Of a stretch of DNA of 64,000 nt, positions 7,627-63,412 are shown piece after piece. The stretch is taken from the NCBI GenBank assembly GCA_934045905.1, contig OW203769.1, positions 16,461,705-16,525,704 of the forward strand. The letters are read 5' to 3'. The position numbers and the translations under genes are program-made. Source of the DNA: Leuctra nigra (Eukaryota; Arthropoda; Insecta; Plecoptera; Leuctridae). Within the stretch, counting starts at the first letter, position 1; every line of letters starts with the position of its first letter. The notes below the pieces were generated by a model. That model was not told where the DNA came from. It did not search any database and worked only from the letters and a program-made list of their open reading frames with translations.

Positions 7627-8061
7627 CAGGGACTGGAACCCAAGTGAATATCGGTTCCGGTTCCGGTAAGAGTTCCAAGTTTTAAAAAAACGGTTCCTAT
7701 TCCGGTTCAGGTTCCTGGGAAAAATAAAATAACGGTTCCGATTCCGGTTCCGGTTCTATTTCGGTTCCAAAAAGGTTCCAAACGGTTCCATCAAATTCAT
7801 ACAATTTTTTTTTTAATTATGTTTTGGGAATTACATGCACAGAAATGTGTTTCATTAATTTGACTCAGTGATCATTTACTAGAAAAACTGTACTAAATGG
7901 TAATAAATAATTACAGGTTTGAAAGGCAATGAAGTAAAAATTCAATGAAATTAATTATTTAAAGACCCCTTACGGAACCGTTATGGAACCCAAATAATGT
8001 AAAATATAAATAGGGGTTCCGGTTCAACTTAAAATAATATGGGTTCCGGTTCCAGTCCCTG
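7627..8061. mobile_element. Complete hAT-type MITE, GGTTCC-rich
   Basis: Ends CAGGGACTGGAACC and GGTTCCAGTCCCTG are inverted repeats. The element is flanked by the 8-bp direct repeat GTTGTGAC at 7619-7626 and 8062-8069. An 8-bp duplication and CAGGG ends are hallmarks of hAT elements. It is 435 bp, without an ORF, and the subterminal regions are packed with ggttcc/ggaacc motifs that may be transposase-binding sites (inference). Confidence 0.92.
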
Positions 8062-8615
8062 GTTGTGACGTCGCAATAGGACCTCCCCCCCTCTTTAACG
8101 AGGCTGCACTTGAAGTAAACATTAGAGTCATTCAAATCTTCTCAGTATTTTAGTTTGGTTTCGTATTCTAATAAGTAGGTAAAGCTCGGTGAATTACCGA
8201 GCAAAATATTGGAGAAAATATAGTTTGTGGAAGTCGAATAAAGTATTAAATAATATTAAATAATAAATTAAATAATATTTCCTAAATATCGCATAACACC
8301 GGATGAATTATGCAATGTGAATAGTGAAATATGTGAAAAATAGTTAAAGTTTAGCTAATGTTTTAATATATCTTATAGCATGTATTGCTAACCAATATTT
8401 GTGCTCAAACTCGTGGAAATTGTAAAAAAAAAAATCAATTCAGATTTTCAATTAGTTTGGACATTAGTGGGTGTGCAAAATATCAGATCGATTGGTTGAA
8501 CTGTTTGACCTGGCCAGACTGACATTTAGTCACAGAAATTACATTTTCTTATTTCAGACTGGTTCTAATCCACATGTGATACTCACTTCATCGCTTGGGA
8601 TTGACTATTTTCCAG

Positions 8616-13000: not shown

Positions 13001-16000
13001 ACAGAAAATTTTAAAAGAGATAAAATGAAGAAAACACTCCTATTTATATGTAGCAGAGCTTCTTTTATTTCTATGTATTTTGGTTCTCCTACGTTCCCAA
13101 TAGACATTTTGCGTCCAGCTTATTCCTTATGGGACTAAAATTCTTTGCATACTTTCGATTAAAATCACGTTTTTCGATTTGCTGTTCTCACTATCACAAC
13201 CGGATTGGTACCTTCTCATATGTCTTACAGATATTAATAGTTTGATGTGTAATTATGGTAAAATTTTAATTTCTGACCGTTGCCCCCCTTTAAGACTCGT
13301 CGTCCGGGTGTTCGCGGGTATACCGATCGTCTCATCCACTCATTGACGCTCGGTGGTGTGATTTCACTGCCTCCTACATAACTGGTCGCTGTCTGAATGT
13401 TCAGCTGACCGACATTCACCAGGCCGTGTCCAAGATGGCCGATGTAAACAAACGAAGAACTGTCAAAATGTGTTTCAATGACAATTCTCGACTATTTACA
13501 CTAAAAAACGCTTGTTTATGAATTAAAAACATGATAAAAGTGTAGTTAGTGTTTTATTTATTATTAAAATCAGTGTAATTGTGACAGATTCGTGTTATAT
13601 GAACAAAGCAAGTGAGTTTTTCAATGAATTGACTTTTATTATTTAACTCGAACTGCAATTGAGAATTTAGAAAAGGAAGAACTGTCGAGGTTTTAAATGA
13701 CATTGCGGGCATAATTTCTAATGCAATGGATTGTACAAGTTAATTTTCTGTATCTCAATATATTTCTAATCCTGCATCTTTCTTTAACAACTGATTTGTA
13801 TGACGTCTATTATCTTCCATAGTATGTTTATGTTTTATTTGTGTTGATATTTACAAATTTGTGATACAAAATGAAGGAGACTTCCCTATTGCGTCATTAG
13901 AAGTTGATATTACTTTCCCTCTCGGAACTGAAAGACCTCTGACATGTCCCACAGTGGCGGAGGCGCGAGGTCGTGGTGCCTCGCCAAGGGCGCAAGCCCC
14001 AGCAGACAGTGGCGTCTCGGAACTGAAACATCTGACATGTCCCACAGTGGCGGCGGCGCGAGGTCGTGGTGCCTCGCCAAGGGCGCAAGCCCCAGCAGAC
14101 AGTGGCGTCGCGGAACTGAAACATCTGACATGTCCCACAGTGGCGGCGGCGCGAGGTCGTGGTGCCTCGCCAAGGGCGCAAGCGCCAGCAGACAGTGGCG
14201 TCTTGGGACTGAAACATCTGACATGTCCCACAGTGGCGGCGGCGCGAGGTCGTGGTGCCTCGCCAAGGGCGCAAGCGCCAGCAGACAGTGGCGTCTTGGG
14301 ACTGAAAGATCTCTGACATGTCCCACAGTGGCGGCGGCGCGAGGTCGTGGTTCCTCGCCAAGGGCGCAAACCCCAGCAGACAGTGGCGTCTTGGGACTGA
14401 AAGATCTGACATGTCCCACAGTGGCGGGGTCGTGGTGCCTCGCCAAGGGCGCAAGCGCCAGCAGACAGTGGCGTCTTGGGACTGAAACATCTGACATGTC
14501 CCACAGTGGCGGCGGCGCGAGGTCGTGGTGCCTCGCCAAGGGCGCAAGCGCCAGCAGACAGTGGCGTCTTGGGACTGAAAGATCTCTGACATGTCCCACA
14601 GTGGCGGCGGCGCGAGGTCGTGGTGCCTCGACAAGGGCGCAAGCGCCAGCAGACAGTGGCGGCGCGCGAGTCTGCCGTCATCTTCCCCGACGCTTCACCC
14701 TCTCAACGCGGTCGACAAGCCTCCGAGCTGCGCTACGAGAGCAAGCTGTACGGCAAGTGGAGTCGGTGGTCGCAGTGTACGCGCTCGTGCACGACGCAAA
14801 GGAGAAGGTACATGGGGGGGGGGGGGGGGGGGGGGGGGTAGAACTCGGATGTCAGATAGAGGAATTAAGTGTCGGATATACATATTGTGTTCTGACAGCT
14901 ATTACAAGGATATATTAGGATGCATAACTCCACTTTGAATTAATAATCGAACATTTTCACGACTCCAATTATGACGCAGGCATAGGCGTTCACAAGGGGG
15001 GGGGGGGTGTAAGGGGGGCGCTTGCCCCTTCCCCCTGGATATCAGGAAAACTTAAAATTTTTGTGGAGATTTATGTATATTTTCATCAAGTGAACTCAAA
15101 ACTCAAAAAAATTAATTTCAAAGTGTCAAAAAACTAATAAATGCCCTGCGGGGCAAGGTTAGGGGGGCGCCACCCAAACCAACTTGCTGTGTGGGAAATA
15201 AAGCACCTGCTAGGCAATTTAATTTTTCAAAAAATTAACGTTAAAAGAAATTTTTTACATTTTTAAAACTGGAATTTTTTAAACAATTTTGCTCCCATTT
15301 AAAAAGTTATTCCCAGAATAATATTCGCAACCGTGACCGGGTATTCAAAAGCTGTACTTTCCCTCCTGCATCAGGACTCATGTGTTTGAAATGCTGCCTA
15401 CAGACTGTGCAAGCGGCGAGACCTGTGTGGAAATGACGTGATGAGGGAGACGGCCTACTGCTATCTGGAGGGAAGCTTCTGTCAGAGATGGATCTACAGG
15501 AAGATCCAGCAGACCGAGGAGGAGAACGAAGGTGCGTCACAACTCTGTCCATTCAGATACGAGACCCGGGATCTTCTTTTCAAAATATCATTTCGAAACG
15601 CTTTTCCAACATTTCGACTATATACAATTCTAAATATAAGTATAAAAGACAAATAAATAAAAAAAAAAAAAAAATGATAAATATCTTGGATATGATATAA
15701 CTTATCTACGTGACAATGATATTCAGAGCAAAATACACAAATTTCAGCATATTTGTGGGACTATAAGAAGAAGTCTAAAAAATAAATCGCGAAAGGAGAC
15801 ACAATTAAAATTCTATAATGTGATAGCAGTTCCCACATTGCTGTATGGAAGTGAAGCCTGGACATTGCGTGAGAGAGACAAGAAAGATATTCAAGCTTCT
15901 GAGATGCGCTTTTTGAGATCGGTAAAAGGGTGTCGTTTGTTAGATAAGATCAGGAATGAGGATATAAGGGCCGAATTGGGAATGAAGGAAATCAATAAGA

Positions 16001-19000
16001 ATATATCACAGTACAGGAGAAGATGGGCCGACCATGTAGAATGGATGTCGAATAAGAGAATTCCCAAATAGGCCCTTCACTATTATCCGAAGGGCAGGCG
16101 CGACATTGGCCGGCCAAGGAAAAGATGGGCTGCACCTTGAGGACGGAACGGGCTTTTAGCCCAATCTTTGCGGGTAGAAGAAGAAGAAGAAGAAGTATAA
16201 AAGACTCATATAATGTCATGTGGTTTGCAAACTCCCGTCCAATAATGTGTTTTCAATTTTATGTTATCAGAGGGAAAAATATGAATATTAGGTAATAATG
16301 AAAGAGGTATAATTGGAAAAATATTTAGAAAGCATGGTTTCTAGCTTTTTAATAACCATTCGTTAATAGGTATTGCTTTCTACTAGAAAAAAATTGTTAA
16401 AATCAAGCCGTACAAAAAATAGATCTACAGTTAAAAACGACAAGGTTTTTTCACGGTGGGGCATTCTATTTTATCTCAGAAACTAGACACGAGAAGTAAT
16501 TGAATTTTCGAGGGATTGTGTATTGGCACAAAATAATGGAAATGAGACGTGACCTATGGAGACGCCTGTTGGAGAATATATAATGTAGCTACTAGACAAT
16601 TTTGATCCATACATATTCCAGTCAAAAGCTCATGACGAAAATGATTTGCAATGTCCGTCAGTTGAGATTACCAATGTATGTGCGCAGCTGCGGACTACTT
16701 CTGGTTGGACAACGCGCACGACACGTGGAGCGCCCCCGACGAGAGAACCACTAACTACCCGGACTCCGAGGTCACCACATGCGGCGTGGGGGGAAACTCC
16801 TCTTCCCGGTCCTTAGGGAACATGCTGCGCATCATCGGGGGCAGACCCACCGCCAAGGGAATGTGGCCTTGGCAGGTGGCAGTGCTCAACAGGTTCAGAG
16901 TGAGTAGGACGCGTTCATAAGCGAGCATTCTGGTTGCTATGGTAACATAACTCGATCTTGTTTATTGTGTTGCAATTTTTCACTAGATTCATCGTATTTT
17001 AAATACAGCTGTGAAAGAAAGATTAAAAAGAAATACAGGTTGTATGAAATTAAATAAGGAATTTTATCAAGGAAGATAATCTTTACAATTATTACTTATT
17101 TACTGAAAACATCTGTCCCCCAGTTAGATTTTGGTCAGCTGTGATGTCAGATGAGATTGCCATACTGCATGCGTGTGAAAGTTGCTGCTTGACAGACCTT
17201 GAAAGTCAGCGGTGAAGATAACCTAATTAAACGCATCGTGAAGCATCGATTATTTCTTCACTATGAAACAAATTACAAATGTTTGTTTAGATCTTTGAAG
17301 TTCTTGAACATTTTGTCTAAATTTCAGGAAACTCTTTAAATCTACATCTAAAGTAAATAATGATTTACTCATCATTCACAACCTCTCACATACTTCAAAC
17401 AATATAAAGTATTCCGTAAAGTAGCAGTCAGCAGTCAGCAGTCGTCGAGAGAGGTTGTGTGTCCAGTTGCTCCTCGCAACTGGTTTGTTTTCCTGTTAGT
17501 GGGAATTTTCCTGTTAGTGTTAGTGGAATCTTGTATATCTGCGTCTCAAGTGATTTTAACTACATTAAATTACGTATTTAATTTTTAATTATGGCAGGGA
17601 AAGGGAATCAGACAAGTGCCATGAAACGCCCGACTAGAAGTGAAAAGTTGGCCGCGGTTGATCGCGTTAATGACGGCGAGTCTAAGGTGTCGGTGGCGCG
17701 GGACCTCGGTGTCTCAGAATATGCCGTCAGAGATTGGTGTAAAAAGGCAGCGGAGTCGACTACTGGAAAGTCTGCGAGCATCTTATCAGCAGAAGAAGAT
17801 GGCAGCAATCCGTGTAAAAGAGCATCTCTATCGTGTGAGCTTTGTGAAGTGAAAGACGTAGAAATTGCAAAGTTAGTGAGTGATCTAAACGAAGTTAAAA
17901 TGCAGCTTACTGATATTGTAAGTAGGCTAGTTAATGTAGAGTTGGTGGCTTCAAAGTGGGAAAAGAGTAAAGAACTCCAGAAGAAGATTGCACAACCATG
18001 TGAAAGCCAAGGGACACAGGGCGTGTCTGCAATGACTCATGTCACAAGCACGGAGAACTCGGTACAGCATCACAATACGTCACCTGTTAGAGAGCTGATA
18101 GAGGCGTTCGAGGAGGTCGAGTCCCGGTCAAGGGTGGCTAATAATTCTAATGTTATTATTAGACCAGATACCTTGATTCTAAGAGAGAAGGAGTGTGAGG
18201 TGTTAAATGATGGGAGGGGGTTGCCTTTAGAGACTGTCATCAGCGGGAAATGTACAAGTGAAAGCATCTTAAATGGCAAAGAGGTTGTAATCATTGGGGA
18301 CTCTATGGTGAGATTAGCTGGTCGAGTTAGAGCAGATATCACAGACTGTGTGGTGGCATATCCTGGGATGAGATGGCAGAATGTAGCGCAAGCGGTTGAG
18401 CGAGATGTGATCCAGGGTAAGAAAAGTCATCCAAAAACATTAATTTTACACTTTGGGACAAATAATATTAAAAGTGCTAAAAATCTGGATTATATCACAG
18501 GTGAAGCATATGATTCTATTACAAATGTAAAGAAAATATTGCCTGGTACAAAGATAGTTGTAAGTGGAATTTTGAATAGAAGAGATGTGTCTGCTAAAAA
18601 AATTAAATTACTAAATGAGAATTTATTGTGGGTCTGTGACGCACTGCATGTAAATTTTATCAATGCAAGTAAATGGTTGACTGATTCAGATTTGTGCAGA
18701 GATGGATTGCATCTCAATGTTAAAGGGGCTAGGGTGTTTGGTAAGTTTTTACACTATGCGGCTAATACAAATTGTGGACTTCAGGGAAACTAGGAAGAGC
18801 TTCAGAGGTGTTGGCTAAGAATGTTATTTCTAATAACGTTGTTATGCATGTTAATATTCAGTCCTTAAGAAATAAGTTTGAATTATTAGAAGCATTTTTA
18901 AAAGCAAATCCGTCTGATGTTGTCTGTTTATCGGAGCATTGGCTGGAAGCGGGTGAAATAAACAGTGCAACTATTCCTGGTTACACTTTGATTAATTGGT

Positions 19001-22000
19001 ATTGCAGAGATAATTATAAACATGGTGGTGTCATGATATATGTCAAGTCAGAATTAAATTCAAAATTATTTACAGCAGACATACATTTAAATGAGGATAA
19101 GCTTTTTGAATATACATGCATTGAGCTAAGTGCACCGTACGGAAACTGCATTGTTGTGTGTATATACAGATGTCCATCTGGTAACTTTTTGTTATTTGTT
19201 GATAAACTTACACTACTGTTGAATAAGCTGCAAATGACAGGAAAAAATATTATAATAAGTGGTGATTTTAATGTTAATTTTAGCTCACATTGTAATCAGG
19301 CCATTACCCTTGTAGATTTATTTTCATCATATGGATTAATTAAGCAAGTACATGATTATACAAGAATTACCATGAGATCTGAAACGTGTATAGATAATAT
19401 TTTCACCAATATGTCAAATGCCACTGCCGTGTCACTTGATGCTGGTTTGTCTGACCATTGTGTTCAGCTGTTGAGAGTAAAGGCATGTGCATCGACTGAT
19501 AGCAGTCAGGAATTTGTATACAAAAGATCATTCAGTGATGAACAAGTAAATACTTTCAAGTTGTTGATGAGTGGTGCCAACTGGGACAGCATTTATGTCG
19601 AAGAAGGTGTTAATAATATGTTTAATGAGTTCATGAGGATTTTTAATCAGTATTTTGATGAAGCGTTTCCAAAGAGAAGAGTTAGAATAAAAAGACAAAA
19701 TAAAAAAGTTAATTCGTGGTTCACTAAAGAATTAAAACAGATGTCTGAAGAAGTAAAGAGGTTGTACGTAATTTCAAAAAGAAATTTGGTGCACAAGGCA
19801 CGATATTTAAAGCTGAAGAAAGATTACACATTGGCCATTAAAAATAGTAAACGTAATATGAACATAACATGTATAAATACGGCAAAAAACAAGTCAAAGG
19901 CTGCGTGGAATTTAATAAAGAGTAATATGAATGATTCAAGTTTGTGCAGCTCAAGAAGTGGGGATATTAAGCTGGTTCATGAGGGGAGGCACATTAACTC
20001 AGCTAAAGAAGTTGCTAATGTATTTAATGACTATTTTAAAAATGCGGCAGATATTGTTTTGAAGAAGAGCAAGGAGTCGAACCAAGGAATTAGCAACAGT
20101 TGTGGTAGTTACATCCAAAATATAAGCAGTACCTGTAGCGGTAACAATTTTTTCTTGTATCCTGTTAGTATGAAGGATGTCTATGATGTAATAGATAAAG
20201 TAACGCATAAAAAATCCGCAGGATTTGATGAAATTCCTTGTCATATTGTTAAGTATGTTGCAGGGTACGTGGCAGAGCCTTTAGTTTTCATTATAAATGA
20301 ATCATTCTCGTCAGGTGTGTTTCCTGAGAATTTGAAAAAAGCAGTAATTAGTCCTTTATTCAAAAAAGGTAAAAAAGACGCGGTAGAAAACTACAGACCG
20401 ATAGCCTTATTATCAGTATTTTCTAAAATTTTTGAGAAGGCATTTTATAACAAGTTAATACTATTTTTAGAGAAATTTGACCTGCTATCAGATTGTCAAC
20501 ATGGATTTCGTAAAGGAAGATCTACTACTACTGCCATAAACAATTTGGTTAATAAAATATATAATGCATTGGATAATAAAAGTCCAGCCGTTGGAATATT
20601 TTACGATTTTTCGAAAGCCTTCGATATGGTTAATCATGACAAATTAATGAATAAGTTAAAACACTTTGGTATTGTGGGAGTCGCCAGCAGTTGGATTAAA
20701 TCTTATTTAACGGAAAGAAAACAGGTGATAAAACTAGTGACTTCTTCAGGTGTTAATTTTTCTGATGAAACTACTGTTAATATAGGTGTTCCGCAAGGTT
20801 CGACAATTGCTCCTCTAATATTCATTTTATTTACTGGCGATTTGACACATTGTATTCAAAAAGGAAATTTAACATTATTTGCTGACGATACTTCTCACTT
20901 CTTGAGCAATGATCTTGATGATAGGTGCATGGAAGTACAGCAATTGGCTAGTTGGGTTGTTAACAACGACTTGTGTTTGAATGAATCTAAGACTGTTATG
21001 CTTCAATTTTCTCAAAGTACTAATAACAGTAATTTGTCCAGTCCATTAATTTACTTAAATGGGAGAAGTATATTGGTACAAAATTCAACAAAGTATTTGG
21101 GCATTACATTAGATAGTAAATTAAATTGGAAAGAACACATTTTTAATGTAGGTAATAAAGTGTCTTCCGGTTGCTTTTTGATCAAAAGAATAATGCAAAT
21201 TTGTAATTTTGAGGCAGCTAAGTCCGTTTACTATTCCTATATTCATTCATTTATTTCTTATGGAATTGTGTTGTGGGGTCATTCCACACACACAAAAAGA
21301 CTTTTTATTTTACAGAAGAGAGCTGTTCGGTTTCTGGCCAGTGCTAGTTACGATCCGTGTACTGCTGGTGTTTACTTCAAAGATTCATGTAGACCACTTT
21401 TTATAAGTTTTAAAATTCTCACTCTTCCTTGCATTTATATTTATAATACTATTATGTTCGTGATAGAAAATAAGCATTTAACAATTGATAACAAGGAGGT
21501 ACATAATCACAATACCAGGTTAAATTATAATTTAAGAGTATGTTCAATGAACTCTAAATCTAAGTTTAATAATAAGTGTCCAGTCGCAGTTGGTGTCAGT
21601 CTTTTCAATAAATTGAATTCATCATTAAAATCTAAAATTGACTATGAGAGATTGTATATTTTTAAATCATCACTGAAAGAATTTTTAATTATTAATTGTT
21701 TTTATTCAATTGACGAGTTTCTCAACGCAAAATGTTTATAGTTATTATGATTTCTTGTACAAGCCTGAATTTAATTTGTTTGCTTTACCTAATTGTTATG
21801 TAATTGACGTGTCCAATATCATTTGTATATGATCAAATAGGGATTAATAAAACTTGAAACTTGAAACTTGAGCACAATGTTTGTCACTAAAGCTGATTTG
21901 AAAAATAATCTTCCAGTTTGGGTGTCAAAACGACACTGTGTAACTTCCAAAAGAGGTGAAAGTGATGGCAACTAATGTTATTGAATATCGCTGAGAATGT

Positions 22001-25000
22001 GTATGATTTCTCACGCCAGGAGGCGTTCTGTGGCGGGACTCTGGTGTCCCCGCGCTGGGTGCTCACGGCTGCGCACTGCGTCAGAAAGCGGCTCTACGTG
22101 CGCATCGGCGAGCACGACCTGGCGGTGAAAGAGGGAACCGAGACTCATATGTTGATTTCTCCCACCAGGAGGCGTTCTGTGGCGGGACTCTGGTGTCCCC
22201 GCGCTGGGTGCTCACGGCTGCGCACTGCGTCAGAAAGCGGCTCTACGTGCGCATCGGCGAGCACGACCTGGCGGTGAAGGAGGGAACCGAGACTGAGCTC
22301 AGGGTGAGACATCTAGGGTAGTTGCATATCTCTGGTAGATATGGTAACTCGATCTCGTTTGCTTTGCTGGAGGACAGGACTTTGTTGAATAGTTTCATTG
22401 TATTTTAGATACAGTTCTTAATGCGTTCGCTTCTTTATGGTTTTAAAAGCTTGTGATAAAACCAGTCTTGCAAATCACCCCTCTGTATACAAATATCTAT
22501 ATTTTCAGCTACTAACTATGTCTGTGTACGACTAGTACTCGTATAGAGGATACATTTTATCAGGACATACAGAGTTGACTATACTCCAGTTTGTGGCTTT
22601 ATGTAGTAGAGTGATCTTCAAATAATTGAATAAAATACGAAAGACAACGATAAACGACGCTATCCTCGACGCCTTTGTTGCAGATCGAGTACGCCGTGAC
22701 GCATCCGAGCTACGACGCCGAGACGGTGGACAACGACGTCGCTCTCCTGCGCCTGCCGACGTCGATCACGCCGGACCGGTACCAGGGGTTTGCGTGCCTG
22801 CCGAGCTACAGACAGGCGCTGCCCACGGCCAAGTACTGTACCATCATCGGCTGGGGCAAGAGGGTCAGCTCGGACACGTACGGCACGGACGTGCTGCATG
22901 AGGCCAAGGTATGTGGAGGTGGAAGTACACGCCGGACAGGTACCAGGGGTGTGCTTGCCTGCCGAGCTACAGACAGGCGCTGCCCACGGCCAAGTACTGT
23001 ACCATCATCGGCTGGGGCAAGAGGGTCAGCTCGGACACGTACGGCACGGACGTGCTGCTTGAGGCCAAGGTATGTGGAGGTGGAAGTACACGCCGGACAG
23101 GTACCAGGGGTGTGCTTGCCTGCCGAGCTACAGACAGGCGCTGCCCACGGCCAAGTACTGTACCATCATCGGCTGGGGCAAGAGGGTCAGCTCGGACACG
23201 TACGGCACGGACGTGCTGCATGAGGCCAAGGTATAGCGACACGGAGGTGGAAGTGGAAGTACAACACAGGCAGAACGAACGTCACCGTGATTATTACGCG
23301 ACCGATTTTGCTTCTTTTTGTAGACACTTTTTTGGATACGATTAGAGACGAAACGGGTTTAAGAAATGATTTGAAATTTTAATCATGATTAGATAAAGGA
23401 CATATTTAGGGTTATGAAATTGGTACATTTTAATTTTTTGCTGATAAAAGATACCAAGGGGGCCGGCTAAACGTCCCATCCGAAGGACGGTGTGACATTC
23501 ACAGCACGGGCCTCCACAACCCGCGCCGTCGAGAGACTAATAACAGATGGAGGGAGGTCATCACACAAACCCCCAAACACCCCAGTTTCACTGGCCAAAC
23601 GGAGTTGAACAGTTACCCATCCAACTACTGACTGCGCTCAATGTTGCTTTACCTCGGTGATCTGACGAGAACTAAGGTATCCAATACAAAACGAAGCACT
23701 GTTCATTTTTCATAACACTTTTGTCTATTTTCAGTCAAATGGGTCTTGAAATTAAGACACTTGTCTAAATTTCTTCCCCCCCCCCCCCCCTCCCCCGATG
23801 GACTGTCACCTTGGCGCGGTGGTGCGAGTTAAAGGGTCAACCCACATTATAGGCGGGTCCCAACTAAGAGCAGTTCAGGGTGAACCTGGTCCCATGCCCT
23901 CCCCAAATTCGCGAGCCCCTCGGGTCGGCCTCCCCCCTCGAAATGGTGATACCCCTGAAATCGGGTTCCACGGACCCGAAGCCTCCCGTCCCCATTCCGG
24001 CCTGACCTTCCCATTAGTGCTGGACTCCTCCGGGCCGGGCTCTCTTAGGTCGACCCCTCCCCATGTCCTCCCTATTATTCAACAAAGAGAACAGAATCTT
24101 AATATGTGCAAAATGACCTCGCTGTCGACACTTAACTCTAAATCGCTCCATCTAACTGTGTGTACCCACTGCGCAGGTGCCGATCGTGTCCAACGAGTTG
24201 TGCCGCAGCGTGTACCAGGACTACCACATCACCGGCAACATGTTCTGCGCGGGCTACAAGCGCGGTCGCATGGACTCCTGCGCGCCTGATCTATCTGTGT
24301 GTCCCCACTGCGCAGGTGCCGATCGTGTCCAACGAGCTGTGCCGCAGCGTGTACCAGGACTACCACATCACCGGCAACATGTTCTGCGCGGGCTACAAGC
24401 GCGGTCGCATGGACTCCTGCGCGCCTGATCTAACTGTGTGTACCCACTGCGCAGGTGCCGATCGTGTCCAACGAGCTGTGCCGCAGCGTGTACCAGGACT
24501 ACCACATCACCGGCAACATGTTCTGTGCGGGCTACAAGCGCGGTCGCATGGACTCCTGCGCGCCTGATCTAACTGTGTGTACCCACTGCGCAGGTGCCGA
24601 TCGTGTCCAACGAGCTGTGCCGCAGCGTGTACCAGGACTACCACATCACCGGCAACATGTTCTGTGCGGGCTACAAGCGCGGTCGCATGGACTCCTGCGC
24701 GCCTGATCTAACTGTGTGTACCCACTGCGCAGGTGCCGATCGTGTCCAACGAGCTGTGCCGCAGCGTGTACCAGGACTACCACATCACCGGCAACATGTT
24801 CTGCGCGGGCTACAAGCGCGGTCGCATGGACTCCTGCGCGCCTGATCTAACTGTGTGTACCCACTGCGCAGGTGCCGATCGTGTCCAACGAGCTGTGCCG
24901 CAGCGTGTACCAGGACTACCACATCACCGGCAACATGTTCTGCGCGGGCTACAAGCGCGGTCGCATGGACTCCTGCGCGCCTGATCTATCTGTGTGTCCC

Positions 25001-26262: not shown

Positions 26263-26263
26263 C

Positions 26264-26350
26264 GTCGGTAGCGTCGGTAGCGTCGGAGGCGTCGGAGGCG
26301 TCGGTGATGTTGGTGACGTCGGTAGCGTCGGTGACGTCGGGACGTTTGTG
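26264..26350 (+). repeat. GTCGGTAGC-type minisatellite in the protease 3' UTR
   Basis: Immediately after the stop codon, roughly 9-bp units of the type gtcggtagc / gtcggaggc / gtcggtgac repeat about nine times. The units are degenerate. They begin within two bases of the TGA and look like untranslated sequence. Confidence 0.8.
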
Positions 26351-26413
26351 AAGTTAGGGGCGATGGTGACGTCGACAGGACGATTTGCTTTTGTTCATGT
26401 CAAATTTTGTCTT

Positions 26414-26531
26414 ATTAAAATAGAGTGCAAGCTGATTTGAGAGGCCTGTGTAAGGTAACAGCAAACGTAATGTTCTTCAATATATTATTTTTTTAAATTT
26501 TGTCTTCACAGTAGGTACCTAATAGAATAAA
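26414..26531 (+). terminator. Probable polyadenylation signals of the protease gene
   Basis: ATTAAA at 26414-26419 and AATAAA at 26526-26531 lie 150-270 bases after the stop. Either could direct 3' end formation. Neither has been tested. Confidence 0.5.
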
Positions 26532-26767
26532 AAAAGATATTAGTGACTCTTCCAAACTTAAGGACTAAATAATGGCACACACTGGAGTTCTATTATGTAA
26601 CATCTGGTATGACCTTAGATCGCACCAGAGGTCATAATGTACCTAATGTAGTGTGTGGCATTATTGATACCAGTAATCTTAAAAAGAAGATACCTGATTT
26701 TTTTAAATGCTGTTAGTGTTGATACAAACAAACGCTTTAAAGATCAGTGCGTTTTCCATTACCTTAT

Positions 26768-26887
26768 GGTCGATTCACACGGCCGTTCCAAACTTCGACG
26801 TTCCGAACGGCCGTTTCATACCTTGTTGAAAGTAAAACACATTGAATCTTCCATTTCAATTGCGCTCTTGGGAAGTTTGAATCGACC
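26768..26887. mobile_element. Possible 120-bp MITE with GGTCGATTCA ends
   Basis: ggtcgattca at the left and tgaatcgacc at the right, with inner ttccaaactt / aagtttg tracts pairing roughly. Evidence is limited to the ends. Confidence 0.4.
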
Positions 26888-26899
26888 TTTACAGAGTCC

Positions 26900-29800
26900 T
26901 CTTATTGCGTAATGTATATTTATTACAATGCAATGGCGAGCATCATACGATCGACAATTGTCCTAAACAATCGAGTGCGACGGCATGACAAAGCTCGGAC
27001 GATTCGTTCGTCCGCCTTTATGTGTCGAGATCGGTTTGTAGGAAATGTGTTGTCATGTCTTTTGGTTCATTCTCTTTGAAAGATAGCAACCATAATCTAT
27101 TATTTATTAAATGTGCATCAGTATACTTACTTACTATTCGTAAGTATTCTCTTATTCGTATACATACATACTATTGGTAAAATATAGTTAAACCATGGTT
27201 AAACTATCATTTTATTTTGCATGTTTTAACTGCCAATTACAAATATAAATGCGCATTTTTTATAACACTTTGGGTGAAATACTTGAAGATATACTGTAAC
27301 ATAAAATAGAACTCAACGCCTTCCTAGTGCAAACATTCTAACTTTTTGACATTGAGAAAAAAACTGTTTTGAGAGATTTTGATGTCGATCGAATTCTCTC
27401 ATTATTGGACATTGTTTTACATTGTTGCAACATATCGATATTCTGAATGAATGAAATGTGACAACAGTGCGCCTAGTTTCTCAAGATATATTATTTTACT
27501 ATAATCGCCTGATGTTTACGAAGAGAGACACACAGTTAACGATTAGTGTGGATATTTGTTTTATTACAGGAAACTGTTCATTGTTTGAACAATGTATATA
27601 AAATGAATTAGTGCTGTATTTGGCACAAGATTATTGAAATAAACGCACGAAAACGTTAAAAGTGCAACTTTGCTTCTTAAAACACAACAACATTAAGGTT
27701 GCATGAGGGGATGAGATTTTAAAACCCAAAAGTGACTGAAATTTGGACTTTCACAATTATTTGTTGTTGAACCTGAAGACTCACGGCAATATAAAATAGC
27801 TTAGTCACACCGGGCATTATCTGGCTATTTTATGATATTTAAATGAGTTCTACAAATTTGCCCTAATTAGAATGCAGGTTGTACGAGTGAGTACACTTTA
27901 ATGAAAACTTCATTCGGGCCACCTGCATAAGAAAACGGCTGAATATAAAAAATCGGTATTTTTTGTGCACATCCGGAATCATTACAATTTGTCAGTCTGC
28001 TATTTTATAATGTAATGTCATTAATATTTAATTGGGAAAAAATTAAATACTGAAATAAAATTAATTGTGATTATGTTAGTGAGGCCTCAAGATATTCAGT
28101 ACTCCCACCCCTAACTCAAGAGTTTCATTGTTTACAGCACGTTCCATAGTCATAAATTTCCCAGACCCTCATAAAATAAAACCTTTTTCATACAACCTTT
28201 TTGGTTATTGAATAGAAATTGACCCTCGCAATATTGAACACTTTAAGTGCCAAGACAACAATGTCAGGTAGATTGGCGGAAGGATTCGAACCCCCTTAAG
28301 CGTTCAATTCTGTACCTCAGAGGTAGAAGGCCCGATGTCCCTTTCAATGATTCTCGAGTTGAGCTCAAAACCATGAATTCAGCTCTCATGCAATCATATT
28401 TTATATTTGTCACACCAGACACTTTGTTAGAGAATACCTACTTCATTAATTGTTGACTTTAATGGAATTGCAATTGATAGAGCTTGATTACATCATTATA
28501 AAGTGTACAACAAAAAATCGTGAAAATGGACATCGGGCCTTCTACTTCAGATGTACTGAATTGAGTAATTAGTTTTTGATTGATTTTCATTTATATTCTG
28601 TCCATCCTTACCTACTCGTCACCATCAACGTAGTTATTAATTTGTCGTCTTTATAATATGGTGCTTTAATAATTACAAAATATGCTATATACTAAAATAA
28701 AATATACCTATAATTAGGGTTTTTTACTACAAAAAGCTACAAAGTAGCTACAAGTACCCTTCGTTGTGTTGCACCTTTCTATGTCTTCTATTGTACTCTC
28801 TTTTGTCTGCTCGCCAAGCTATAACTTCCATCCACCATGGCTTAGCTTTGGACGCAAACATCTACAAATAAGCAAATATTTTGAAGTTAGCAAAATCTCG
28901 CAAGCTGCTTGTACGGCATTTCTTTGACACTACTGTTTCATTGTCAACATCCATTCAGTCGTCATAGCCAACAGGCTAGTTATCCACGGCTAATCTTCAA
29001 GTGACACTGTCTTTAAAAAACCGTTTGTTAGTTCAAATTGTGCATGGTCATTGCGCCAACATTTTAGATGATTTTGACTTTTGACTGACAAATTGAACAA
29101 GAACTTGAAGAGTTATTGGCAATTGAATATTTTTTTTGGCAACATTGGTTGATAGATATTTTCACCACTCCTTGAGGCATTTGATAACATTGTGTATAAA
29201 GCTATTTGCAAGGTATGTAAAGAGCAAGATCGCACATTAATTCGCCTGCAAGTCGAAGGTTCGCTTATCAACTTGTTACACAAAGCGAACGCGTTTCGTG
29301 CGCCATGCCGCTCAATACTCCCTGTTTATTCAATGTGTCAATTTGATTCTGGGACGCTGTGGTGGCAGACTGCTTGAGTGGGGGGGGGGGGGGGGGGGGG
29401 GGATTCCCCATCACTTCTTCCTACGCGCCTGGTTAATAATAACAAGGATTGATTGTCAAGGAACTTGACCCAGCACTCAATCTGTTTCGTTGATGTACTG
29501 CTTTTATTTACTTTGGCCAAGTGTACAAGAAATACTAGTTATAACAATGACGATAGCTACGGATAGATGCGTCGCATTTCTACCAAATGAGTTACTTATC
29601 TTCTTTACTCTCCCATCTTTGTTCTACTTATGTAGGCTTTTTGGCGACGGTGTTTTTATTGTGATAATTTGGTTAATTATTCGTGTTCCCCAGCTTAGAA
29701 TTATATGGAATATGATAATTGTGTACATATTGAACCATAGTTTGTGTAAGGGAATAACGACACAGAATTTACTAATATCTTTCTTTCCGGGTATCTACCC

Positions 29801-30600
29801 TTAAATGAAAATCATCAAGAAAATAAAACTAGTTGTTAGTCTGACTTCATACTTGAAACCACAATTTAATTTACCAATGTATTTTACACAGGTGAAAAAT
29901 ATTTCAATGTACTTCCAGGAGCAATAAAAATCAAAAGACATTGTGTTTTAAACATAATCTTAAAAATAATTAATAGATAAGTGTTTTTACTCAAAGCTTT
30001 TAATCTGCGGTTTCATTTTATAAATTCATTGACTTTGTAATCATGTTGGATGTATAAAAAAAGGTGTAATAAACTATTAACATGGAACCCTGAGCCTAGC
30101 ACAAGAAACAATGTTGGTAATTACTAATTAGAGATGATGCAGTTGCGCAGTTTACCGATTGTCTTCAAAATTACACAGATTATAGATAAATGGTAAATCT
30201 GTGCCACTAATGGACCAAAAGTAGCATTTCTTGTTTAGTATTTTCAGGGCAGAGGTGCCAAAACACCCATATATTGATTGCCCATATTAGAACCTCCGCA
30301 AAAAGAGAAATAAAATTTTTCTGATTTTGTGAAGCACTAGAGGCACAGATTTACTGTTTTTCTTTATGCTGTAAAAATTTGGAGATCATGCCATTCAGAA
30401 AAAAGTGGGTACACCCTTTCATGTTTTTTTGTGGTATTCAATAATTGAATTAAAACTACTTACTTAGCAGCAATGAAACATTTTAATGACATAAATGTGA
30501 CGTACTGATTCATATTCTTGCAAGTCTAGGAATTTTTTACAACAAAATTGAATATTTCTGCGAGCATTATCGACTGTCCTTGTCTGACACGCGCCGAATT
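26900..30600. other. Intergenic region between the two genes
   Basis: AT-rich. The only features seen are the SINE-like piece at 28243-28385, its relative at 28520-28560 and a run of 23 G at 29380-29402. No gene. Confidence 0.5.
28243..28385 (-). mobile_element. Second tRNA-like SINE type
   Basis: The reverse strand has a B-box GGGGGTTCGAATCC and the segment TGAGAATCATTGAAA-like ... GGACATCGGGCCTTCTACCT. The latter recurs at about 28520-28560, 46443-46500 and 56190-56245. Family unknown to me. Confidence 0.5.
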
Positions 30601-30602
30601 CG

Positions 30603-30609
30603 TATAAAA
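30603..30609 (+). promoter_or_regulatory. Possible TATA box of the Ig-like gene
   Basis: TATAAAA lies 160 bases before the ATG at 30769. That would place transcription start near 30630 and give a 5' UTR of about 135 bases. In an AT-rich region such a match can be chance. Confidence 0.4.
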
Positions 30610-30768
30610 CCACAATGAAAGCTGTAAAACATGCTAATAACCATTATCCATGTTCATTAGCAGTTAAAAAGGGCAAATCATTTATATCGAGAATGGAAAA
30701 CATAAAAGTATTGCCTAAATAGGCTTCAGAAGAAGTGAACAATCAGAAACACTTGAGAAGAAAGAAGA

Positions 30769-30826
30769 ATGGTGGCGTTTAGAGCGGACGTTTTGGTAGG
30801 AGTCGCTTTGTGTTTGTTAGTGATGG
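30769..30826 (+). CDS. Exon 1: signal peptide of Ig-like protein
   Basis: ATG in good context (aagaatgg) encodes a short basic start and a hydrophobic core (VLVGVALCLLVMG). It ends G|GTAAGT in phase 1, which fits the exon at 31427. Confidence 0.82.
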
Positions 30827-33800
30827 GTAAGTAATGCAACTTGTGAGCGAGAAACAGAAAGTGAATCGAAACTATTCTCAAACAAAACTAACCTCCGATA
30901 GAGCTATATAACTATTGGGAAACTTACTGTGTACCTACTGACAAAGAAAACACTGGTCAGCGGGCCCAGGGCTAGGAAAGTGGGCAAAAAGTTTGATTAA
31001 ATGAATACCATAGAAACCAAATTATAGATGATCGATAGTAATGAAAATAATAGTAATTTAAAAAAATTATATGGTCAAACCAACCACAATTTGTGTTTAA
31101 ATCCCGCTAAAATTCACTAAATTCTATAGTGACATTCAAGATTTTTCCGAGCCTCGCCGTATTGTTGTGAGGCCCTCCAAATAGGACCCAAGTAGGTCCT
31201 GATGTTATAATATTTTACCATCTACTCTACCTACCTACCTATGAACACAAAAATATGCACATTATTTTTAAATATTTTTACGGAAGTAGAGGGCCTTAAA
31301 AATTACCTGCGGGAGGGGGGGGGGGCGAAATCTGATATTACGCCACTGTGTCCGTGAGAAAAGAGTGAAAAGGCTCGGTCAATATCATTATTTCTCTGTT
31401 ACTCATGCTCTTGTCTTCCATTACAGAAACCCTCTCTCTCCCATCAATAGCAATCAGTCCCAAACGCGTCACCATCATGAAAGGCGACACTGTGTCTATC
31501 CTCTGCAACGACGCATTGAAACAGAGCCTCATCGGATGCCAGTTCATGCAGATGAACTCCAGTCTGATCGACCTGAGTGCAGGCACGAAGTCAAAACCTC
31601 CTGCGAACCACAGCTATGTAGGCGCAGGACTCAACTCAGGAGAGTGCGGCATGAAAGTGACCGGGCTTGTACAGGAAACTCTGTACACTTATGGATGTAG
31701 AGTGAGAGCGGAGACAGGAGGGTGGGTCTATGACATCATGACCATTCTTCTTGACAACAAAGGTGAGCGGGCTTGTACAGGAAACTCTGTACACTTATGG
31801 ATGTAGAGTGAGAGCGGAGACAGGAGGGTGGGTCTATGACATCATGACTATTCTTCTTGACAACAAAGGTGAGCGGGCTCGTACAGGAAACTCTGTACAC
31901 TTATGGATGTAGAGTGAGAGCGGAGACAGGAGGGTGGGTCTATGACATCATGACGATACTTCTTGACAACAAAGGTGAGCGGGCTCGTACAGGAAACTCT
32001 GTACACTTATGGATGTAGAGTGAGAGCGGAGACAGGAGGGTGGGTCTATGACATCATGACGATACTTCTTGACAACAAAGGTGAGCGGGTTCGTACAGGA
32101 AACTCTGTACACTTATGGATGTAGAGTGAGAGCGGAGACAGGAGGGTGGGTCTATGACATCATGACCATTCTTCTTGACAACAAAGGTGAGCGGGCTCGT
32201 ACAGGAAACTCTGTACACTTATGGATGTAGAGTGAGAGCGGAGACAGGAGGGTGGGTCTATGACATCATGACTATTCTTCTTGACAACAAAGGTGAGCGG
32301 GCTCGTACAGGAAACTCTGTACACTTATGGATGTAGAGTGAGAGCGGAGACAGGAGGGTGGGTCTATGACATCATGACGATTCTTCTTGACAACAAAGGT
32401 GAGGGGAAGAGTCTTGGGGACTGCTGTTGGAACTGACGGCTACGTCAAATTTAACCAAAATACGGACATGTATCTTAGGCTCATTATTTAGTAAAGCAAC
32501 TTTGGGATGTAGTTTAGACTTTGACTTCCGCTCTAGGGGATTTGCAAGAGTTTCGTCGATGTCTAGTGACAAACGAAACTGACCCGTTCGTACGTATAGA
32601 CCAAGGTAAAATTCTTCACTGTCCGGCTGAGATCGTCTTACATTTGGAAAGATTGCACTGAAAGCTGACGCAGCACAACAATATGCTTTGGATGCTCTTG
32701 TAGTATAAATATGTAGACATAGCTAAGCATTAAACAAAATTAATAATATGTCTTTATATTGCCAGAATTTGGTAAAGCAGTGCGACCTCAGACATCGGCG
32801 AAAGCATTCAGTGCTGCAGCTATAGCAGTCACGAGTCCCATACTGAGCGGAAGTCAATGGCTTAGATACCCATTTTCTGGGAATACTATTGAGAAAATTT
32901 AAGAAATAATTAAAAGAAGAAAAGGTATTATTTTTCATGTATTTGAAACGTATTACCAGGAAGCGGATCCACAAAGAAAGATTCCACAGAATCCCACAGA
33001 TTTTGCTTAAAGTCTGGGTTAACTAAACAACATCTCAATCAAAATCTCTGGGATTCTGTAGAATCTCTCTTTGTGGATCCGCTTCAAGGTGTTTTTGTTA
33101 AAATATTTAATATATTTTTTAAATTTTTCACTTTGGGATGGTGGGAGACATGATTAAACCTGCCCCGCAGGGCATTTGATGTTTTTTTTGCCACTTTGAA
33201 ATCAATTTTCTTTAGTTTCTTGGTAACAAAATGAGACTGTACGTAAAACACCAGAAAATGTTTTTATGTTTTCTTGACATCCAGGGGGCAAGGAACCCCC
33301 TTGCCCCCCCCCCCCCCCCCCTGTGGACGCCTCAGAACCATTCGCTGTGTATTTTCAGACAACAAGCCTCTGAACGTAGTGAGCGGTTGGAACGTGGGCG
33401 GGAAGATAGTCCTGGCCCATCCGGGACAGCCCATGACCGTCACCTACTACCTGATCCAGCCCACCCGACACACGCTCTCAGTGTGCGCCTTCCAGCTGAA
33501 CGGCGTCTGGGTGCATTTCGACCAGGGCGGCGACAGTCCCAAGACGTCCGAGGTGCAATACCACGGCGATGGACTCAAGGCGGGAGCTTGCGGCGTCAAG
33601 TTCTTCAATATCACCGAGAAACACAATGGACAGATGAGCGTCAAGATGAGAGTGAAGACGCCGATCACTGGCCACCATTTCTCAGCGTTCCATATGATTG
33701 TCGTCAGTGAGTACAATATTTACTATTTATTTGGTCCACACACACAGTGTTGGGTATAAGTTCCTCAAAAAAAGAAAGAGTCGTTCCATCACCAACATGA

Positions 33801-36190
33801 CTTGGTATCTAGGCGACGACATGATCATATTGTTACAGAACCCCCGCACTCCGTGACCTTGAAAGTGAACACGACTGACCTGAAGGACGGCGAGACTCTG
33901 TCTGCCACTTGCACGGCCACCAAGAGCCGGCCTGTCACCTACATGACTTGTTATCTAGGCGACGACCTGATCATATTGTTACAGAACCCCCGCACTCCGT
34001 GACCTTGACAGTGAACACGACTGATCTGAAGGACGGCGAGACTCTGTCTGCCACTTGCACAGCCACCAAGAGCCGCCCCATCACCAACATGACTTGGTAT
34101 CTAGGCGACGACATGATCCGCAGCGACGCCGGGGACGACTCGCCCGTCTACAAGAAGTGGCGCTGGGGATATGACTTGCAGACGATATCCCAGAACATAT
34201 CCAGACCAGTGACGATCAAGGATCATGGCAAGGTGCTGATCTGTGCGACACAGCATCAGGGTATCCCGAATCGAGGAGGTGTTTATTATCGCGCGGCAGT
34301 GATCTCCGTCACGAGTGAGTATTCTTGAAGGAATTGGAGCCCATAGTTTTACTAATTGTTCCCCATAGTCGCGATTCTACTCAAATCGCGAGTAGTATTT
34401 ATTTGTGGATATTACTCTCACAATTCAAGTTGTCCTACTTCTGATGCGAATAGGCATCCTGCGTGAGAAAAGGTTACCAAAGTAACCTACATAATATTTT
34501 AGGGAATAAACAAATCTGACAGCGGCAATCCAAATCTCATATTTAGAGTGATTACTTGTGAAAGAAAGATATTTAAGTAAGTACAAGTTAATAACTAGGA
34601 AAACGCTCAGTGTAACGCGTTGATGAGCGAGCACAGAACATGCAACATCCCCATAGTAACGATGCACGACACGGCAGAAGACGATTTACTCTGCAATTTT
34701 TCAATCTCCATAATACACTGGATGAATAACAGATCCATTGTGTCGTGAAGTCTTACCTACATACCTTCTCCAGAAATCTCTTGTGACATCCCATACTAAA
34801 CTCGTAAAATTACAATTAATACTTGACTGATTGGGCTTACAATATGTAAAATTTAATATTAAGTTGGTCTTGATCACCATGCAAAATTTGAACTTAATGT
34901 GAACATTTTTATTGTCGACCAATCAGAAGACATTATTTAAACTTAAACCAATTAGAGGATTTGGCCTTCGTACTGCATCCGATTTTATGCGCTAGCTCAA
35001 AAATGCTTTCATTTTACTGTACATTGTGGATAGCTTGGCTGCTCTACAGGCCTTGCCTTGGAACAGAAGCTTAAAGAAGGCAGGGATGACAATTTAGTAT
35101 ACATTTTTCAAGATTATAAAATAAAATGACCTTAAAATGACAAAACTTTTGAAAATAACGACAGATTAGACTGAAAATTGGCAAAAATACCTAAAATGTT
35201 GGTACCAATGACCACGCGAAGTTTTAAGTTGATCGGTCAATCTGTTCTAGTTTAAATGTCAAAAATCACATGAAAAATGGTTTTAAATTTGAACCAATAG
35301 GAGGATTTGGCTGAAACTTTTTATGATTGGGTACAATGTTGGTTGCAATGTTTTTGCTAAATTTCAAATTGATTGATGCAACCAATCGAAAGATAATTTT
35401 TTTTAAATTTGAACCAATCACGGGAGCCCGTTCAAAAACGATCCCAGGGACCGCATAGAGTACGTTAGTATGTGTACAAAATTTCAGATCGATTGCTTGA
35501 GCGGTTTGACCTGGGCTGTGACCACAAAAAAAAAAAAAAAAAAAAAAAAACACACAGAGAAAAAGCCATAAGAGTACCGTGGTGACGCTCGCTACGCTCG
35601 CTCAATAATACGCAATAGTTATCCATACACATGTTCAAGTTAAATATTCATCTGACAAATATGATTTATAGCTATTATTTATAGCTTTGACACATTTCCC
35701 CTACCCCCTCAACCTCCATTTTTCTACCCCTGTGACGTCACGAGCAGGATTCCTATACACTCACGGCGTTCCATATTCTCCAAAACATTTTTCAAACTCA
35801 ACTTTTTCCCCTACTTTGACACCTTTTGCACTGTCAATCTTGTCATTCTAGACCACCTTTAGATTGAAGATCCAACATGCTCTAAAATGATTTAAGATAG
35901 TCAGTTTTCAAAAATTTCGTTACGCGACAGTTTTTGGATTCAACACTGGTTACACTGAGCATGAGAGACCCTCATGTACTCATGTACTCATGATGGACCC
36001 TTGTATCTTCGTGTTCATTGCAATGGACCAACTGTGTAACATCTCTGTTTCGTCTTCAGAACCTGATGCCGGAGTCATCGACTACGCTAAGATAAAAGCC
36101 ATCAATCCCAAGAAATCGGTCCAAGCAGCGACCAAGTCCAAGAAGTCTGTCCAAACAACGACCAAGCCGCCGACTAAAACAAAGGCTTAG
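30769..36190 (+). CDS. Secreted three-Ig-domain protein (complete multi-exon gene)
   Basis: Exons 30769-30826, 31427-31762, 33359-33706, 33985-34314 and 36060-36190 join to 401 codons including TAG. All four introns are phase 1, typical of Ig-domain exons. Residues 1-20 (MVAFRADVLVGVALCLLVMG) form a signal peptide. Each of the three middle exons encodes one Ig-like unit of about 110-115 residues, and the last encodes a Lys/Thr-rich tail with a repeated KKSVQ motif. No transmembrane segment follows, so the product is likely secreted. Several N-glycosylation sequons occur (NSS, NHS, NIT, NTT, NMT, NIS). Function is unknown; a recognition or immune role would be a guess. Two of its exons carry junction arrays. 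Confidence 0.85.
30951..31348. mobile_element. CACTGGCGTA-ended element copy in an Ig-gene intron
   Basis: Starts cactggtcagcgggcccagg and ends gatattacgccactg. The interior aligns with 56947-57316. It ends 78 bases before the acceptor of Ig exon 2. Confidence 0.55.
31427..31762 (+). CDS. Exon 2: Ig-like domain 1
   Basis: The exon follows cttccattacag and ends AACAAAG|GTGAGC; it is a 1-1 phase exon. It reads ETLSLPSIAISPKRVTIMKG, then VSILCND and later YGCRVRAE as the canonical Ig cysteine pair, plus a second pair in IGCQF and GECGMKV. The last 100 bases with the donor are repeated six more times downstream. Confidence 0.85.
31663..32406 (+). repeat. 106-bp x7 tandem array of an exon's donor edge
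   Basis: The marker ACAGGAAACTCTGTACAC starts at 31671, 31777, 31883, 31989, 32095, 32201 and 32307, every step exactly 106 bp. Each unit is about 100 bp of the 3' part of Ig exon 2, the donor AAAG|GTGAGC and six intron bases. The last copy runs into ordinary intron (gtgaggggaag). The unit join falls where exonic AAAGTGACCGGG resembles the donor AAAGGTGAG, so GTGA microhomology may have started the array. Copies differ at a few sites (accatt, actatt, acgata, acgatt). Confidence 0.96.
33135..33325 (+). repeat. GCCCCGCAGGGC-type repeat with C-run, next to an Ig exon
   Basis: The core ctgccccgcagggcattt, then ttttgccactttgaaatcaa and gtaaaacaccagaaaatgt match 46890-47120. An 18-base C run (33304-33321) ends it, 37 bases before the exon at 33359. 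Confidence 0.65.
33359..33706 (+). CDS. Exon 3: Ig-like domain 2
   Basis: The exon follows gtgtattttcag and ends GTCGTCA|GTGAGT; 1-1 phase. It reads DNKPLNVVSGWNVGGKIVLA and then VTYYLIQP, SVCAFQLNGVW, GACGVKFFNIT and MSVKMRVKT. It keeps the secondary Cys pair seen in exon 2 but lacks the canonical Ig pair: Tyr and Met/Arg positions stand where SILC and YGC occur. An 18-base C run ends 37 bases before the exon. Confidence 0.83.
33786..34121 (+). repeat. 146-bp x2 (plus partial) array of an exon's acceptor edge
   Basis: Exon starts after ttgttacag lie at 33839 and 33985, 146 bp apart, each with about 134 bp of exon. A partial unit (accaacatgacttggtatctaggcg...) lies at 33786-33838, ahead of the first copy. 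Only about 12 intron bases (atattgttacag) are included per unit. Using the first acceptor reads through to a stop near 34000. Confidence 0.92.
33985..34314 (+). CDS. Exon 4: Ig-like domain 3
   Basis: The exon follows atattgttacag and ends GTCACGA|GTGAGT; 1-1 phase. It reads KPPHSVTLTVNTTDLKDGET, LSATCTATKSRP, NMTWYLGDDM and KVLICATQHQG, with the canonical Ig Cys pair and the Trp of strand C. It is the complete copy of a duplicated edge; the truncated copy begins at 33839. Confidence 0.85.
34597..35612 (+). mobile_element. GAGCGAGC/GCTCGCTC interspersed element, long copy
   Basis: It begins ggaaaacgctcagtgtaacg, then cgttgatgagcgagc, and ends gctcgctacgctcgctcaataat, so GAGCGAGC faces GCTCGCTC. 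The interior has several related blocks of about 130 bp with ttgaaccaat.g...ggatttggctgaaac and the marker gcaaaatttcagatcgat. A 26-base A run starts at 35525. Other copies or pieces are at about 280-470, 4847-5250, 8797-9170, 16905-17230, 36882-37512 (reverse), 42715-43376 (reverse), 53180-53400 and 60486-61113. No ORF; class unknown. Confidence 0.7.
36060..36190 (+). CDS. Exon 5: Lys/Thr-rich C-terminal tail
   Basis: The exon follows ttcgtcttcag and completes a split Lys codon. It reads PDAGVIDYAKIKAINPKKSV, then repeated KKSVQ.(A/T)TK units and TKTKA before TAG at 36188-36190. No hydrophobic anchor is present. Confidence 0.8.
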
Positions 36191-39425: not shown

Positions 39426-39463
<38 letters not shown>

Positions 39464-62860: not shown

Positions 62861-63412
62861 TGCTTTACACGTTGCCCTCGGCTATGTACACAACTGTACA
62901 ACACTTCACACGTTGCCCCTGGCTATGTACACAACTGTACAACAAACGGCACCGGCCGGCCACTCGAATTGCGACGGAGAGTTGCAAAAAACGTGAGGTT
63001 TCGTCGCGTGTAGCAAGTCCCATGGAACTAATTATAATGGAGAGTCAGTCCATTGTTGGGACTGTAATTTAGAAAAACACGTATTACACTGTCTGTTTTG
63101 TGACACATATGCACCATAGTCGTGTATCGGGGGCCACGGATATTTTTGAAATTTGACCGAATTTCCAAGCATCTTGGTGACTTTTGAAAATTGAATGGAT
63201 TCAAGTTCAATCTGAATTAAATGGAAAATAACATAAAAAACATGTGTTTGCTTCCGAATAGAACAATAGTTTGTAATAATGAACCTATAATCATAAAGTG
63301 GTGGTAAGTGGCAGGTATTGATGAATTTCATGGGGAGGAGGAAAACAAAACATACGTTGCTTTTTTTCTATATCTTCCATTTTTAGGTATCTGAGGAATC
63401 AGCCCCCCCCCC

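Follow-up and report, generated by a model that had tools for sequence, protein, structure and literature searches.

In minisatellites (VNTR), units of about 10-200 bp follow one another head to tail in tandem, and the arrays reported here from the stonefly Leuctra nigra, which also consist of head-to-tail copies with units in this range, belong to this class. As in an ordinary minisatellite, in the general understanding of the term, non-adjacent copies have variants in common (array 4, see below) and copy number differs between loci. Unlike in an ordinary minisatellite, an end copy is the working edge of an exon and the copies carry coding constraint.

Closer systems have been described in man and in potato. 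Human segmental duplications contain internal tandem repeats at exon-intron boundaries, with units averaging 30 bp; slippage or unequal crossover was suggested for their growth, and the splicing pattern was changed (PMC2812944). In a potato RdRp gene, a duplication crosses an intron-exon boundary, so that it comprises the 3' side of the intron and the 5' side of the next exon (PMC4974935), and a new intron was formed in the duplicated region (PMC4974935; review PMC3443670). These cases are of the same kind as the L. nigra arrays, since minisatellite arrays sit on the exon-intron boundaries of genes in the former (PMC2812944) and a duplication runs across an intron-exon boundary in the latter (PMC4974935). 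The human repeats concern paralogs in segmental duplications (PMC2812944), whereas the L. nigra units measure 51-161 bp, lie in unrelated genes, were met in 11 of 100 sampled stretches and show a synonymous bias among copies; the potato case is one duplication with a new intron, whereas the 2-14 copies in L. nigra appear to lengthen an existing one. No title on stonefly exon-edge arrays was among the matches listed for exon-boundary repeats, intron gain and stoneflies, a literature in which few subscription journals were covered. How common the arrays are in the ordinary genes of a single genome, and the coding mark that their spare copies bear, seem to be new.

The window, that is, the whole 64-kb stretch of DNA analyzed here, lies on chromosome 8 of L. 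nigra (C8:16,461,705-16,525,704; genome 536.2 Mb). Six arrays, described in the earlier note from the letters of the sequence, were all recovered at their places by TRF (period at least 50 bp, match at least 85%, at least 1.8 copies), and are the only ones in the whole window within these limits. Outside the limits, a 130-bp pair at 11433 (76% match) and a 41-bp pair at 62863 were found. The arrays, and the gene that carries several of them, are as follows.

13938-14666, plus strand: array 1, 93 bp x7.8, on what is probably the acceptor side of an exon at about 14602-14807 (TRF, sequence by eye)
22004-22294, plus strand: array 2, 149 bp x2.0, at the acceptor of the protease exon EAFCGGTLV.. 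(22169-22303) (TRF, homologues)
22767-23234, plus strand: array 3, 161 bp x2.9, at the donor of the protease exon 22684-22908 (TRF, homologues)
24150-26090, plus strand: array 4, 139 bp x14, on the acceptor side of exon 25984-26262, the last of the protease (TRF, Pfam, homologues)
31657-32403, plus strand: array 5, 106 bp x7.0, at the donor of a second-gene exon at about 31427-31762 (TRF, sequence)
33786-34118, plus strand: array 6, 146 bp x2.3, on the acceptor side of an exon (about 33985-34314) that is Ig C2-set-like (TRF, Pfam)
22169-26262, plus strand: trypsin-like serine protease gene; its three 3' exons join in an open frame and contain LTAAHC, DNDVALL and GDSGGP motifs

The joined protease exons form an open stretch of 212 residues that matches Pfam Trypsin (1e-60) and a Blattella germanica protein with 72% identity over 98% of the query, the top match, which is unnamed, reaching 73%. 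Homologues continue unbroken across the junctions at arrays 2, 3, and 4, and the protein is restored by reading one end copy of each: the last copy of array 2 completes exon 22169-22303, the first copy of array 3 completes exon 22684-22908, and the last copy of array 4 completes exon 25984-26262 (VPIVSNE..GDSGGP..stop). The claim that an end copy completes the exon and keeps the frame is thus supported at these three arrays. Variants common to non-adjacent copies were observed in array 4. Exons of this gene also lie near 15.4 and 16.8 kb, with a probable one at 14.6 kb. For the array 1 exon (about 14602-14807), no Pfam match was obtained; the region falls outside the coverage of the homologues and its acceptor is only probable. 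By eye, from its motif, this exon resembles a thrombospondin type 1 repeat.

The splice sites of the second gene were placed from open frames and consensus sites. Among its three exons tested, one matches the Ig C2-set model (1.4e-4) and the other two, among them the array 5 exon (about 31427-31762), have no Pfam match; on the strength of this one exon match, the predicted gene is called Ig-like here. In all, nine exons can be listed in the window, five matching protease homologues, one matching Ig and three based on open frames and consensus sites, and the 13 exons counted earlier were not reproduced. The unit of array 5 contains about 5 bp of intron (GTGAG) and that of array 6 contains 12 bp, its left copy beginning within exon sequence. 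Over the window, the intron piece read from the sequence was about 5-32 bp, in agreement with the 6-35 bp given previously. The chance that six units of these periods, placed randomly between 13.9 and 34.2 kb, all span one of 17 approximate, hand-typed edges is 1.5e-6, a post hoc figure for a window that had been chosen for the pattern.

Several other features were observed in the window. A protease intron contains a non-LTR retrotransposon (17582-21741) that has two long open frames; its 403-aa frame matches CENP-B_N and GDSL-lipase, and its 991-aa frame matches endonuclease and reverse transcriptase. A 9-bp GTCGGTGAC-like repeat (26255-26351) begins at the protease stop codon. The sequence at 1077-1668 is a dispersed element that matched at least 39 other places at 89-94% identity (40 of 3,040 candidates were scored), and most of these also match the opposite strand about 240 bp away, resembling a fold-back element. 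TRF also listed long single-base runs at 14814-14838, 35526-35550, 39428-39462, and 47087-47113, the longest consisting of 35 C.

The earlier note had mentioned an assembly artefact at borders between GC-rich and AT-rich DNA. Long G or C runs are indeed found near some arrays (at 14814, and in the sampled stretch L058), as might be expected if the arrays had arisen during assembly or library preparation. However, the ipLeuNigr2.1 assembly was made from PacBio HiFi reads (32x, QV 57.2) of 12-20 kb fragments (PMC10280035), the longest array in the window measures 1.9 kb, and the copies differ in a coding-constrained manner that is not expected from an assembler. An artefact is therefore extremely unlikely.

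To see whether the pattern is confined to the window, about 300 kb were read outside it, in one genome, one haplotype, and three gene families. The window, arbitrary sequence, and stretches around Pfam matches together gave 20 exon-edge arrays with units of 51-161 bp, whose exon-edge position, unit content, and type of splice site were judged by eye from the sequences. The arbitrary sample consisted of twenty 10-kb stretches taken at round-number places, and these 200 kb contained 20 merged arrays. Three of the 20 were clearly on exon edges, all of them acceptors. They lie in a beta-arrestin exon (L023; PDB beta-arrestin-2, E 1.9e-14), in a TRPC-like channel (L015; E 2e-18), and in a weakly identified gene (L026; sub-threshold DUF7042/7045 match). 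Sixteen others fell on no recognised exon, although some of these may be missed exons. The claim that no array lies wholly within an intron held in the window only. The view that the arrays occur in unrelated genes was borne out, several such genes carrying them. The remaining array (L028, 8119) is a 36/108-bp repeat at 7850-8560 that reads in frame with the long open frame around it (AEDQRAPAED..); it is interior and the frame is kept. On the minus strand of L015, the short TRPC-like intron that carries the 70-bp array contains another tandem repeat, of about 40 bp, immediately upstream of that array.

In parallel, 100 stretches around Pfam exon matches were analyzed (40 kinase, 40 trypsin, and 20 kinesin stretches; L086 and L105 hold two matches each). 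Kinase and trypsin stretches were hand-picked to spread over places before their sequence was seen. The kinesin stretches were the first 20 rows shorter than 400 bp and without a stop, a rule set after the list had been seen, and two arrays visible in that list (one with 9 additional partial copies spaced about 142 bp, the other with 5 spaced 155 bp) fell among the 20 taken. An array of period of at least 50 bp (TRF) was found in 11 of the 100 stretches: two kinases (L077, L084), seven trypsins (L049, L058, L092, L095, L096, L098, L104), and two kinesins (L118, L127). All 11 span an exon edge by eye, nine at acceptors and two at donors, and none lies wholly inside the exon match, as compared with 39% expected under uniform placement (p=0.004). 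Repeats of period 13-18 inside six exon matches (L043, L057, L059, L073, L083, L117) were left uncounted, as was, for its period below 50 bp, a 31-bp array at the donor end of one trypsin exon (L094, 6-181), most copies of which have an AG/GTGG-like site.

With a non-exonic density of 0.084 arrays per kb (16 in 190.5 kb of collapsed sequence), 3.4 overlaps would be expected in the 100 stretches against the 11 seen (p=0.00085), corresponding to an exon to non-exonic rate ratio of 3.2 (p=0.004). The excess was also found when all 20 arrays were taken for the density (4.3 expected, p=0.0047) and when the kinesins were left out (9 of 80 stretches, ratio 3.3, p=0.0065). Trypsins alone gave seven arrays where 1.3 were expected (p=0.0004), whereas kinases alone showed no excess in their 40 stretches (2 seen, 1.4 expected, p=0.41). 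An excess over exons is therefore not shown for every family, since the trypsins carry it and the kinases stand at background. The non-random placement put forward earlier is supported in so far as the arrays, taken overall, overlap exons beyond background density.

This pattern among families, together with the abundance of arrays everywhere (20 in 200 kb), would fit plain tandem duplication with no preference for GC or exons, the trypsin genes and the window being local hot spots. The 11 overlaps seen against 3.4 expected speak against it, and so does base composition: the 17 arrays off exon edges (the 16 non-exonic ones and the in-frame coding repeat of L028) also exceed their 300-bp flanks in GC, by 0.079 (p=0.008). 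We thus consider plain duplication unlikely. A GC of at least 0.5 was found in 4 of the 16 non-exonic arrays as compared with 9.5% of array-free 120-bp windows (p=0.058), and arrays in GC-rich non-exonic DNA were in excess by 2.6x relative to the average and by 3.2x relative to GC-poor DNA; this dependence comes from four arrays, and unrecognised exons may be among them. Measured against the same reference, the exon rate ratio of 3.2 compares with 2.6 for GC-rich non-exonic DNA. The exon matches in the first 40 stretches had a mean GC of 57% and their flanks 37%. Array-bearing exons were not significantly GC-richer than others when the first four were compared with the other 56 of the first 60 stretches (p=0.22). 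From these small numbers, we infer that GC-favoured birth accounts for much of the exon excess.

The spare copies were then compared with the working copy in 18 exon-edge arrays out of 20, which excludes L058 for its poly-G and array 1 for its unsure acceptor. The exon part was delimited by eye where it aligned with the working copy, diverged tails lay outside the test, and 6 of 8 copies of L026 were used after removal of a misaligned end. The comparison gave 36 synonymous and 14 non-synonymous differences, among which neighbouring changes may be single events, and no stop-creating change was found in the 18 arrays. Transitions were 27:3 synonymous to non-synonymous (34% synonymous expected, p=3e-10) and transversions 9:11 (19% expected, p=0.008). 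The bias remained without the largest contributor, L023 (31:10), while five of the 18 arrays had no clear synonymous majority (L023, 5:4; W22767, 2:2; L127, 1:1; L084, 0:1; L118, 0:1) and the copies of L092 did not differ at all. A faster change in intron than in exon parts (12.6% vs 4.3%) was rejected, as it was due to L023 alone; without this array, intron parts were no more variable than exon parts (6/162 vs 33/901 sites, p=1.0).

The synonymous excess and the lack of stop-creating changes could mean that the spare copies are used directly, as alternative splice sites or exon ends. However, 14 of the 20 exon-edge arrays have a period that is not divisible by 3, frame-breaking indels occur in the exon-derived tails of L026, L096, and L118, and, by eye, the part-copies terminate in junction sequence with no obvious partner splice site. 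Such use is accordingly very unlikely. Tandem exon duplication giving cassette or mutually exclusive exons was also considered and rejected, as no unit could be read as a whole exon with both splice sites. The synonymous excess suggests that the working end copy either homogenises with the others or is the source from which they are copied again.

Taken together, these data lead us to a preferred reading, to which we give a probability of about 60%, in which exon-edge minisatellites are born preferentially in GC-rich DNA, survive at edges through splicing, and change by unequal exchange. What was observed comprises the arrays, their positions, the synonymous excess, and the lack of any array of period of at least 50 bp inside a sampled exon; we infer GC-dependent birth, tolerance through splicing, and unequal exchange behind them. 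Arrays with units of roughly 50-300 bp are common in L. nigra, and they would form more easily where GC is high; as the genome is AT-rich, such DNA would consist largely of exons. A duplication inside an exon would usually break the protein and be lost, though in-frame ones such as that of L028 may survive. A duplication crossing an edge would keep the exon complete at one end of the array and place the spare part-copies in the intron, each of them bringing a splice site, so that the array could persist. Every unit copy carries a splice site, and the protease would be intact if the extra copies were skipped; copying of the edge is seemingly harmless, since spare copies can presumably be spliced out. 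The number of copies may then grow or shrink by unequal exchange, and exchange or repeated re-copying would keep the coding part of the spare copies near the working end copy. A DNA process targeting splice junctions, as had been put forward, is not required, since GC-favoured birth and loss of arrays inside exons predict much of the pattern. Our confidence is lowered by the dependence of the excess on family, by the GC figure of 2.6, and by the failure of the tail-drift argument.

GC content leaves two properties of the units unexplained, namely the short intron piece and the excess of acceptors. In all 20 exon-edge arrays, the unit consists of one splice site and part of an exon (by eye, the acceptor of array 1 being only probable), and the units examined look like the local exon's own sequence and differ between genes; a dispersed transposable element would place the same unit at unrelated sites. 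The intron piece was 5-49 bp in all 18 arrays measured (median 24.5), with an exon piece of 25-140 bp. The intron share of the unit averaged 23% in these 18 arrays (KS p=5e-5) and, beyond the window, 27% in 13 arrays (KS p=0.0018), six of them having first yielded p=0.075 as a smaller set; pieces were read by eye, array 1 (unsure acceptor) and L058 (poly-G) were left out, and the recognised exon-derived part was omitted for L026, L095, L096, and L118. In these last four, of 12 tails, an altered downstream exon precedes the next acceptor. Acceptors outnumber donors 16:4 (p=0.012), the donor arrays being 22767, 31657, L058, and L127, an excess that is partly due to the fact that many trypsin matches are last exons, which have no donor.

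The short intron pieces and the acceptor excess leave room for a splice-linked origin. Duplication might be linked to the junction through fragility of the polypyrimidine tract next to a GC-rich exon, or through a splicing intermediate (lariat-3' exon RNA) or cDNA that is copied back; units would then extend from slightly upstream of the acceptor into the exon. Besides the consistently short intron piece next to an exon piece of widely varying length and the 16 acceptors, the exon ratio of 3.2 lies somewhat above the 2.6 of GC-rich non-exonic DNA, and three related trypsin genes (22004-22294, L095, and L096; periods 149, 129, and 137 bp) have arrays at the acceptor of what is seemingly the same exon. 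For this last reason, these three arrays may not be independent, and their coincidence may reflect shared ancestry or repeated hits. On the other hand, the four donor arrays have no lariat counterpart, most arrays in arbitrary sequence lie on no recognised exon, kinase exons show no excess, and the last exons among the trypsin matches weigh on the acceptor count. A junction-linked origin thus appears rather unlikely. A branch-point signature of RNA-templated origin was looked for and rejected, yTnAy motifs being present in 8 of 12 tails but scattered and not diagnostic. It is also conceivable, though unlikely and speculative, that acceptors seed duplication, by fragility or by copy-back of a splicing intermediate, and that the arrays are self-correcting reservoirs in which spare copies and working edge overwrite each other.

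If the frequency of the arrays holds across genes, which for the genome as a whole is an extrapolation from a sample of three gene families, then natural experiments would be available in very large number in a single insect, showing how tandem duplications begin, how they are masked by splicing, and how copies within genes become homogenised. Stonefly gene annotation would be affected, through false exons and misplaced splice sites, and intron lengths would be predicted to vary between individuals. The arrays would also make it possible to test directly whether splice junctions are hotspots of mutation or only the sites at which duplications survive.
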